Positions 38,941-41,834 of a stretch of 41,834 nucleotides of DNA are shown here, piece by piece. Positions within the stretch are counted from its first letter, which is position 1. Every line of letters begins with the position of its first letter. The DNA lies in the NCBI GenBank assembly GCA_027004715.1, contig JALTHG010000099.1, forward strand, positions 1 through 41,834. The letters are read 5' to 3'. Both the position numbers and the translations under genes were made by a program. Origin of the DNA: Deltaproteobacteria bacterium. Its GTDB lineage: Bacteria; Desulfobacterota; Dissulfuribacteria; Dissulfuribacterales; UBA3076. The notes under the pieces were generated by a model. That model did not search any database. It worked only from the letters and a program-made list of their open reading frames with translations, and was not told the origin of the DNA.

Positions 38941-40044
38941 ATGATCCTGATACTAAAACCAGACATAACTACCCAAGGTCCTGAGTTCGAGAAGATAGAC
39001 AATTACCTGAAGCAGTTCCCTAATGTCAAAATCAAGTTGGTAGAACTTGAAGGTGAGACCAGAAAGGTAAGGGAGATTCACCTTATCGGCCCGACTCATG
39101 ACATCCCAGAGGACGTGTTGCTTGCCATGCCAGGTATAGAGCAGTTGATAAGGGTCTCCCAAAAATATCGCCAGATAGGCAGATATGATGTAGATCTGGT
39201 ACCAGTGGGCTTTACCTATCAGGGCCTGAAGTTTGATCAGGAGAGTTTTCATATCTTTGCAGGGCCGTGTGCAGTGGATACACCTGAGTATACAGAGGAG
39301 GTATTCAAGGGCCTCCAGAGGCTTGGGATAGTGACGAGCAGGATGGGCGCCTACAAGCCGCGGACAAGTCCATATGACTTCCAGGGACATGGGGCAAAGT
39401 GTCTGCCCTGGGTCTTTGAGCTGGCAGGAAAATATGGGATCAAGATCATTGCCATGGAGGTCCTGCGGGAGCAACATATTGAAGAGATCCGGGCTGCCCT
39501 CAGAGATGCAGGGAATCCTACTGGTGTCATGCTTCAGGTCGGGACACGAAATGCACAGAATTTTGAGCTGCTCAAGGCCGTAGGGTCTCAGAAGGAATTT
39601 CCAGTTCTGTATAAGAGGGGCATGGGGCTCACTCTGGAAGAGTCCTTGAATGCCTGTGAATACATTGTGAGTGAGGGCAACAGGCGGATAGTCTTCTGCC
39701 TCAGGGGAGTAAAGACACAGCTCGGCTCACCACACCGCAACCTGGTAGACTTTGTCCATGTACCAGTAATTAAGAGATTGACCAGGCTGCCTGTATGCAT
39801 AGACCCCAGTCATTCTATAGGCTCAAAGGCGCGTGCCTCAGACGGGCCCTTAGAGATAGCCCATGCAGCGGCACAGGGGGTTATAGCCGGGGCCAACATG
39901 ATCTTACTTGAATGCCATCCAAACCCAGGGGACGCCCTATGCGATAGTCAACAACTCTTGACCCTATCCGAGCTCGAGCAATTTATAAAGGATATGGCCC
40001 TGGTCCGAGAGACATATAAGAAGCGAATAGGTCTATATTCTTAG
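38941..40044 (+). CDS. 3-deoxy-7-phosphoheptulonate (DAHP) synthase, AroF/AroG type with N-terminal ferredoxin-like domain
   Basis: FAGPCAVDTPEYTEEVFKGL, GAYKPRTSPYDFQGHG, CIDPSHSIGSKA. Confidence 0.95.
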   Translation: MILILKPDITTQGPEFEKIDNYLKQFPNVKIKLVELEGETRKVREIHLIGPTHDIPEDVLLAMPGIEQLIRVSQKYRQIGRYDVDLVPVGFTYQGLKFDQESFHIFAGPCAVDTPEYTEEVFKGLQRLGIVTSRMGAYKPRTSPYDFQGHGAKCLPWVFELAGKYGIKIIAMEVLREQHIEEIRAALRDAGNPTGVMLQVGTRNAQNFELLKAVGSQKEFPVLYKRGMGLTLEESLNACEYIVSEGNRRIVFCLRGVKTQLGSPHRNLVDFVHVPVIKRLTRLPVCIDPSHSIGSKARASDGPLEIAHAAAQGVIAGANMILLECHPNPGDALCDSQQLLTLSELEQFIKDMALVRETYKKRIGLYS

Positions 40045-40097
40045 GCCATCCTGGTCGGCGACATAAACAGTTCAACAGGAGGGGTGTGAACAGTTAT
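40045..40097. repeat. Short palindromic repeat family 2, copy
   Basis: ccatcctggtcggcgacataaacagttcaacaggaggggtgtgaacagttat; 3' half matches the 29068 and 16594 copies. Confidence 0.65.
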
Positions 40098-40147
40098 GTT
40101 CTGGGCGTAGATGAGTTATAGGCCCGATAGGGGTCTTTTCTTAGACC

Positions 40148-40176
40148 TTGACAGGTCACAATAGAGCAGGTAGATT
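40148..40176 (+). promoter_or_regulatory. Candidate sigma70 promoter of the trp leader/trpE transcript
   Basis: TTGACA (40148-40153), 17-bp spacer, TAGATT (40171-40176). Confidence 0.65.
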
Positions 40177-40217
40177 TTAACTGAGTGTTTTTGGAGTCCT
40201 AAAAAGGAAGGCGTGGC

Positions 40218-40313
40218 TTGTCTTATCTATATAACAAGATACTCATTACCGATTTGGCCCGCTGGTGGTGCTGGCATATAGGGAGACTGCGCGTCCATTC
40301 CTTTTTGGGCTGA
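40218..40313 (+). CDS. trpL: Candidate trp operon leader peptide, MSYLYNKILITDLARWWCWHIGRLRVHSFLG
   Basis: TTG start 6 nt after AAGGAAGG; three Trp codons within four (TGG TGG TGC TGG at 40263-40274); stop TGA at 40311-40313; followed by a strong terminator and trpE. Confidence 0.78.
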   Translation: MSYLYNKILITDLARWWCWHIGRLRVHSFLG

Positions 40314-40332
40314 GTTCATAAAGGCAGAGGCT

Positions 40333-40378
40333 AAAGGCCGTGGATACGCAGAGATAGTGTCCACGGCCTTTTTGTTTT
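40333..40378 (+). terminator. Attenuator terminator of the trp leader
   Basis: Perfect 12-bp stem aaaggccgtgga (40333-40344)/tccacggccttt (40360-40371) followed by ttgttttg, before the trpE start. Confidence 0.88.
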
Positions 40379-40386
40379 GTCTCTGA

Positions 40387-40407
40387 CCCTCTCCCTGAGG
40401 GAGAGGG
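40387..40407. repeat. 21-bp palindrome ccctctccctgagggagaggg sharing the core of the MITE-like repeat
   Basis: Perfect palindrome; with flank ...cctctccctgagggagagggcaggtgagggg resembles the cores of copies B and C. Confidence 0.75.
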
Positions 40408-40426
40408 CAGGTGAGGGGAAGTTACC

Positions 40427-41834
40427 ATGGTTACTCCAGATCTGACACAGTTCAGGGCGCTGGCCAGAGAGGCCAATATCATACCGGTATGGAGAGAGAT
40501 GGCAGTAGACTTTGACACACCTGTATCTCTGTTTGCAAAGCTGGGAGGAGGCAGCTACTCGTTCCTGCTGGAGAGCCTTGAAGGCGGCGAGAAGTGGGGG
40601 AGGTACAGCTTTATAGGGCTGAGGCCCTTCCTGGTCTTTGCCTGCAAGGGAAAAGACATCTTTACTGATATCAATGGAGAACGCAGGCTCCTATCTGCCA
40701 GTAATCCCATAGATGCCCTGAGAGAGATAATGGCGCAATTCTCTCCTGCAGAGGTGCCGGGTCTCCCCAGGTTTTATGGCGGGGCCGTTGGGTATCTGGG
40801 ATATGATATGGTCCGCTTCATGGAGCGCCTGCCAGAAGACCTCCCTGACACCATGGGATTCCACGATGCAGTGCTCATGTTCCCTGGGCTCGTGCTTGCC
40901 TATGACAATATCAGCCAGACCCTCAAGATCGTTGCCTGCCTAAAGATAGAATCAAAAGACGACGTGGAGTCTGTCTATTCCAGGGGCCTGAATGCAATAG
41001 ACGACGTAGTCCGCCGTATAGAGACAGGGCTGGACTATCCCAGATCTCCCTATGACCAGGTCCCTGTTACTGAACTTGCCCCAGAGGTCTCCCAGGAGCG
41101 CTTTGAGACAATGGTCCGAAGGGCAAAGGAATACATCAGGGCCGGAGACGTCATACAGGTGGTCGTCTCTCAGCGATTCTCCGGTAGAAATTCTATCCCT
41201 ACCTTTGACCTCTATAGGTCCCTGAGGAGGATAAATCCGTCACCATATCTATATTATCTGCACCTGGGCGATGAAGTCCTCATAGGTTCTTCACCTGAGA
41301 TCCTGGTGAGGCTTACAGGCCATGAGATAAATCTGAGGCCTATTGCAGGTACCAGGCCAAGGGGCCACAATCAGGAAGAGGACCTCCGTCTTGAGAAAGA
41401 GCTCCTTGCTGATCCGAAGGAGAGGGCAGAACACCTGATGCTGTTGGACCTTGGAAGAAATGATGTCGGCAGGGTTGCCAGGATGGGGAGCGTGAAGGTG
41501 GATGACTTTATGACCGTGGAACGATATTCCCATGTCATGCACCTGGTCACGGCCGTTACTGGCGAGCTGGAGCAGGGGAAAGATATGTTTGATGTCCTGC
41601 AGGCGTGTTTTCCCGCAGGTACAGTGTCCGGGGCACCAAAGATCAGGGCCATGGAGATCATAGAAGAGCTCGAACACGCCAGGCGTGGACCATATGCCGG
41701 TGCCGTAGGCTATATGGGCTTTTCAGGCAACATGGACCTTGCCATTACCATACGCACACTCTGTCAGAAGAAAGATATGCTCTATCTCCAGGCCGGTGCA
41801 GGCATAGTAGCCGATTCTGATCCTGTCAGGGAAT
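40427..41834 (+). CDS. trpE: Anthranilate synthase component I (C-terminus beyond window)
   Basis: Not in the ORF track. Translation MVTPDLTQFRALAREANIIPVWREMAVDFDTPVSLFAKL...DVIQVVVSQRFSG...INPSPYLYYLHLGDEVLIGSSPEILVRL...RPIAGTRPRG...LLDLGRNDVGRV...FPAGTVSGAPKIRAMEII. Confidence 0.96.
   Translation, partial: MVTPDLTQFRALAREANIIPVWREMAVDFDTPVSLFAKLGGGSYSFLLESLEGGEKWGRYSFIGLRPFLVFACKGKDIFTDINGERRLLSASNPIDALREIMAQFSPAEVPGLPRFYGGAVGYLGYDMVRFMERLPEDLPDTMGFHDAVLMFPGLVLAYDNISQTLKIVACLKIESKDDVESVYSRGLNAIDDVVRRIETGLDYPRSPYDQVPVTELAPEVSQERFETMVRRAKEYIRAGDVIQVVVSQRFSGRNSIPTFDLYRSLRRINPSPYLYYLHLGDEVLIGSSPEILVRLTGHEINLRPIAGTRPRGHNQEEDLRLEKELLADPKERAEHLMLLDLGRNDVGRVARMGSVKVDDFMTVERYSHVMHLVTAVTGELEQGKDMFDVLQACFPAGTVSGAPKIRAMEIIEELEHARRGPYAGAVGYMGFSGNMDLAITIRTLCQKKDMLYLQAGAGIVADSDPVRE

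Follow-up and report, generated by a model that had tools for sequence, protein, structure and literature searches.

A probable ribosome-mediated trp attenuator ahead of trpE in a Deltaproteobacteria genome and its recurrence across Desulfobacterota

Between a DAHP-synthase gene that ends at position 40044 and the trpE gene downstream on the same strand, the original prediction placed an unannotated attenuator. The question raised by this locus is whether the region holds a regulator that reads tryptophan supply through translation of a leader peptide, or a terminator that a Trp-rich reading frame happens to precede. The window (the whole stretch of DNA analyzed, 41,834 nucleotides) is contig C99; the assembly totals 1.44 Mb over 100 contigs and is ~93% complete. 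Among named relatives, those closest by TrpE lie in Deltaproteobacteria MAGs, one labelled SeepSRB2. We read the element as a ribosome-mediated transcription attenuator of the trp operon with a probability of roughly 0.93, a judgment drawn from comparative sequence analysis; a response to tryptophan is what its features predict.

Elements of the trpE upstream region

Table 1. Features ahead of trpE, in window coordinates
Feature	Position	Strand	Remarks
Sigma-70-type promoter, TTGACA-N17-TAGATT (candidate)	40148..40176	+	10/12 consensus
Proposed segment 1, CCUAAAAAGGAA	40198..40209	+	Pairs with 40298-40309; 12 pairs including one U-G
Leader Shine-Dalgarno, AAGGAAGG	40204..40211	+	6 nt before TTG
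Leader peptide ORF, 31 codons, TTG start	40218..40313	+	Stop TGA, 40311-40313
Putative sensing codons, TGG TGG TGC TGG	40263..40274	+	Clustered TGG also in relatives
Segment 2, CUGCGCGUCCAUUCCUUU, antiterminator 5' arm	40287..40304	+	Within leader ORF end; p = 0.010 vs shuffles
Intrinsic terminator	40333..40379	+	15-bp stem (one U-G), 9-nt loop, TTGTTTTG tail
Segment 3	40333..40351	+	Terminator 5' arm and loop start; segment 2 pairs with its AAAGG and UGGAUACGCAG
trpE, anthranilate synthase component I	40427..41834	+	Start ATG 40427; truncated by window end

The original prediction had described a TTGACA-17-TAGATT promoter, a ribosome site, a 31-codon ORF started by TTG and encoding Trp-Trp-Cys-Trp, a perfect 12-bp GC-rich stem with a T-rich tail, and trpE, and each of these was recovered on direct reading (Table 1). 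The candidate promoter consists of boxes at 40148-40153 and 40171-40176 with a 17-nt spacer; about 0.9 promoter-like sites are expected by chance in the region, and family relatives carry a similar TTGACA..AAGCAGGT(C)AT stretch ahead of the leader. The terminator arms (5' AAAGGCCGUGGAUAC, 40333-40347; 3' 40357-40371) form 12 Watson-Crick pairs, or 15 pairs with the inner U-G, A-U, and C-G included, and among 3,000 dinucleotide shuffles of 40047-40426 a single one produced a perfect 12-bp stem closing a loop of at most 15 nt. The trpE product matches the Pfam domains Anth_synt_I_N and Chorismate_bind. At a related locus (L063), trpE is followed by trpG-, trpD-, and trpC-like ORFs, named by eye from their translations.

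The leader peptide of the window, MSYLYNKILITDLARWWCWHIGRLRVHSFLG, aligns with the ATG-started leaders of five family relatives (G003, G004, G005, G007, and G008). Its TGG codons lie at 40263, 40266, and 40272, and an ORF with three TGG within four codons occurred in only 84 of 20,000 dinucleotide shuffles of 40047-40426 (0.4%). Elsewhere in the window such a cluster occurs just once, in a 186-codon ORF of the minus strand. Given that TTG starts are rare, and that TTG 40254 is also in frame, translation of a genuine leader might begin at that codon or even outside the ORF as drawn. We regard this as improbable. The number of codons from start to Trp cluster is the same in the window and its closest relatives, so that TTG 40218 falls, without a gap, exactly where the ATG stands in the five relatives, and it is preceded at 6 nt by a good Shine-Dalgarno, of a kind that TTG 40254 lacks. 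Relatives have a AAGGAAAG-type Shine-Dalgarno at the equivalent place, and two order members from another family (G039 and G033) also appear to have TTG-started leaders. The ORF that begins at TTG 40218 is accordingly the one used below.

The gap between terminator and trpE is occupied by a palindrome, CCCTCTCCCTGAGGGAGAGGG (40386-40418), which is a dispersed repeat with ~16 further places in the genome and whose GGTGAGGGGA end runs into the likely ribosome site of trpE. At the equivalent position in a family relative (L004), short TGAACCC-type tandem repeats take its place.

Conservation in the order and across the phylum

Absence of the Trp codons and terminator from related genomes had been named as evidence that would count against the original prediction. 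The comparison instead found both, together with leader and antiterminator, conserved in the family and in part of the order, and recurring across the phylum. Six other genomes of the family carry the leader upstream of trpE, five with MYHPFAGKQIADLVLWWWQWHIGRVRVCSF-like peptides and one diverged; for G001, of the same genus, no trpE match was obtained beyond a paralogue. The order yielded 19 elements from 5 of its 11 families, about half of the families showing no such leader. The last Trp codon is usually 30-36 nt from the stop, and the stop 16-30 nt from the terminator; segment 2 and the length of the element vary much between families. Two loci, L019 (G031) and L023 (G042), retain a single Trp codon in the leader together with the terminator, possibly a case of sensor decay.

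Beyond the order, 106 genomes of the phylum were surveyed over up to 430 nt ahead of trpE for an ORF of 10-60 codons that repeats a codon within five positions and has a T-tailed hairpin 8-60 nt beyond it. With TGG as the repeated codon, this combination was present in 36 of the 106 genomes (18 families), a count that measures spread and not independent events, the genomes being related. The best other sense codon reached 6, which argues against chance ORFs. Desulfobulbales trpE regions with similar GCCATGG terminators were excluded from the count; they have an S20-like frame upstream and no Trp leader was found there. Many such loci (within L086-L142) run from an S20-like gene, called rpsT by eye, through a GCCATGGC terminator to trpE. 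Among other families of the phylum, L055, L056, and L058 have two tandem terminator-like hairpins ahead of trpE. As a generic terminator word, GGCCGTGGACA was rejected, being near background in most genomes.

These distributions bear on whether the hairpin merely terminates transcription constitutively, perhaps that of the upstream DAHP-synthase gene, with a fortuitous Trp-rich ORF before it. The orientation and nearness of that gene, and the Desulfobulbales terminators that stand ahead of trpE with no Trp leader, would suit such an arrangement. However, the ORF with the TGG cluster is conserved, and the clustering is specific to TGG among the 61 sense codons, the candidate promoter sits between the upstream gene and the leader, and segment 2 is complementary to segment 3, all of which make a constitutive terminator very improbable.

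Alternative RNA folds and the proposed mechanism

Attenuation further calls for an antiterminator. The original prediction had proposed that UCCA..CCUUU (40294-40304) pairs with AAAGG..UGGA (40333-40344). This pairing is present as written, but the antiterminator proved longer: CUGCG-C-GUCCA (40287-40297) is complementary to UGGAU-A-CGCAG (40341-40351), the CUGCG:CGCAG portion reaching into the terminator loop. A nearer AAAGG (40319-40323) is a competing partner for the CCUUU of segment 2. Pairing was assessed by matching the stretch from the last Trp codon to the terminator against the terminator 5' arm and comparing the result with dinucleotide shuffles of that stretch. Across the 55 elements, 38 gave p < 0.05 (23 families) and 17 were not significant; the order alone gave a combined p of 7e-12, and here as below the combined values overstate the evidence, related genomes not being independent. 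Compensatory changes accompany the pairing, with GUCCAC:GUGGAC in the order and AUCCAC:GUGGAU in G053, and with CUCGUGAGG:CCUCACGAG in G051 versus CCCGUGAGG:CCUCACGGG in G167. Several order members (G039, G033, G041, G040, and G042) retain the terminator 5' arm, GCCGUGGACA, despite a mismatched 3' arm, as would be expected of a sequence with a second pairing partner, although G040 and G042 have no clear segment 2.

In folds of the nascent RNA that took 40287 as the first base left free, as under a ribosome stalled at the Trp codons, the antiterminator was the predicted structure up to 40364 and the terminator from 40368. Computed for the free stretch, the terminator reaches -39.1 kcal/mol versus -25.7 kcal/mol for the antiterminator; because the completed terminator is the more stable, control would have to be kinetic. 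Run on the 19 elements of the order, RNAalifold recovered nothing beyond the core terminator; a single consensus cannot display two folds that exclude each other. Plain folding energy was not used as evidence because leader stretches minus the terminator were no more stable than shuffles.

Near the leader end, GAGGUGYGYCC(R)CC (peptide REVRPP or similar) recurs in G144, G049, G241, G279, and G078 (loci L188, L056, L254, L232, and L230, respectively). Pairing by its GGGAGG half can extend into the terminator loop, which gives the motif the look of an extended antiterminator arm.

We propose the following sequence of events. RNA polymerase would start shortly after 40176, and a ribosome would initiate the leader at UUG 40218. 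With ample Trp-tRNA, it would reach the stop at 40311 and cover most of segment 2, leaving segment 3 to pair with segment 4, and transcription would end near 40378. With Trp-tRNA scarce, it would stall at the UGG codons. The leading edge of a ribosome lies 12-15 nt beyond the A site, which would put that of the stalled ribosome at ~40285-40287 and leave segment 2 free to pair with segment 3 ahead of the synthesis of segment 4; no terminator would form, and trpE would be transcribed. A ribosome at the stop would occupy roughly 40296-40325, sparing segment 3. Both footprints fit classical attenuation. Should the leader go untranslated, segment 2 would pair with the leader's Shine-Dalgarno region, and termination would be the default.

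This last pairing involves the strongest helix that competes with the antiterminator, formed by the Shine-Dalgarno region (the part facing 40300-40309 being CCUAAAAAGG, 40198-40207) and the leader 3' end. For the window, complementarity to segment 2 relative to shuffles was p = 0.003 for the Shine-Dalgarno region and p = 0.90 for the Trp-codon region; an E. coli-type four-segment arrangement, with the Trp-codon region as segment 1, was thus not found there. Within the window's family, the Shine-Dalgarno pairing was significant in 6 of 7 elements (combined p 6e-9) and the Trp-codon pairing in 0 of 7, whereas outside it the Trp-codon pairing was significant in 13 of 48 (combined p 2e-9) and the Shine-Dalgarno pairing in 3 of 48 (combined p 0.09). 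Judged by eye, the Shine-Dalgarno helix is kept between the window and genus g3 through two-sided changes (e.g., U-A to A-U), and some genomes show a G-C to C-G change.

It is conceivable, if somewhat doubtful, that the Seep-SRB2-like family exchanged segment 1, such that the Shine-Dalgarno and start region, and not the Trp codons, traps segment 2. We put this forward tentatively: a single genus accounts for five of the six genomes, and the comparison was devised with the data already in view. If true, the leader would shut its own ribosome site after a single ribosome has gone through and segment 2 has become free; a Trp-stalled ribosome would block zipping of the hairpin or let a second ribosome occupy the start; and the phylum-wide set of attenuators would wire one sensor in two ways. 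Since segment 1 seems to have switched partner from family to family, reporters could directly probe how attenuator wiring evolved.

Relation to known tryptophan regulators

Other known means of tryptophan sensing account for the locus less well. The trpB RNA motif (RF04312) is likewise a cis element that sometimes stands ahead of tryptophan genes and has a terminator-like hairpin, but its reported occurrences are in Firmicutes and Fusobacteria, chiefly upstream of a transporter gene (PMC11109978). Least probable of the alternatives is attenuation through such a motif or a TRAP-like protein in place of a translating ribosome: the sub-threshold RF04312 match (20.7 bits versus a cut-off of 59, E = 1.3) is at chance level, neither TRAP/MtrB (PF02081) nor TrpR (PF01371) was found in the ~93%-complete genome, and in-frame Trp codons between start and stop would be needless.

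A translating ribosome remains the favored sensor. The locus has the hallmarks of the ribosome-mediated class, with a Trp-codon leader ORF ahead of a trp gene and a terminator between the leader and the first gene. Complementarity, covariation, spacing, and nascent folds all indicate a mutually exclusive antiterminator, the choice between folds presumably depending on ribosome occupancy. Classical trp attenuation, as originally predicted, is well supported by the conservation, the TGG specificity, and antiterminator pairing beyond that of shuffles. The class has long been known; the element is a further example of it, and its mechanism is not new.

Searches of Rfam 15 returned no match, near-misses being judged chance, and the Trp_leader covariance model (RF00513) gave no match at the gathering score in the window, and none within 40100-40430 with E as high as 5. 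These trp leaders would escape both Rfam and gene finders limited to ATG starts. Our literature search found no paper on trp attenuation in the phylum; older surveys, namely Vitreschak et al. 2004, Merino et al. 2008, and Lopatovskaya et al. 2010 (cited in PMC4833913), may cover some of the genomes, and we claim no priority. The amino-acid attenuators in Rfam have been suggested to be gamma-proteobacterial in origin, in a study that did not analyze delta-proteobacteria (PMC3766115).

The closest counterpart is the E. coli trpL/trpEDCBA attenuator, which shares the short leader ORF with adjacent Trp codons, the 2:3 antiterminator, and the T-tailed 3:4 terminator, followed by trpE. E. coli trpL also gave similar values in the complementarity tests applied to the window; as a control, it yielded p = 0.036 for the Trp-codons-to-stop region with segment 2 and p = 0.89 for the Shine-Dalgarno region with segment 2. 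The window's leader is longer (31 codons versus 14) and starts with TTG, its segment 2 falls within the last part of the ORF and not after it, and the Shine-Dalgarno region seems to serve as its segment 1. Trp leaders of other Desulfobacterota (18 further families) share the clustered TGG codons, a GCCGUGG-type terminator arm, and the antiterminator; in contrast to the window's family, their segment 2 leans toward pairing with the Trp codons rather than the Shine-Dalgarno. Attenuation of trp genes, best known from enterobacteria, is documented here as a recurrent arrangement across a phylum of largely uncultured anaerobes.
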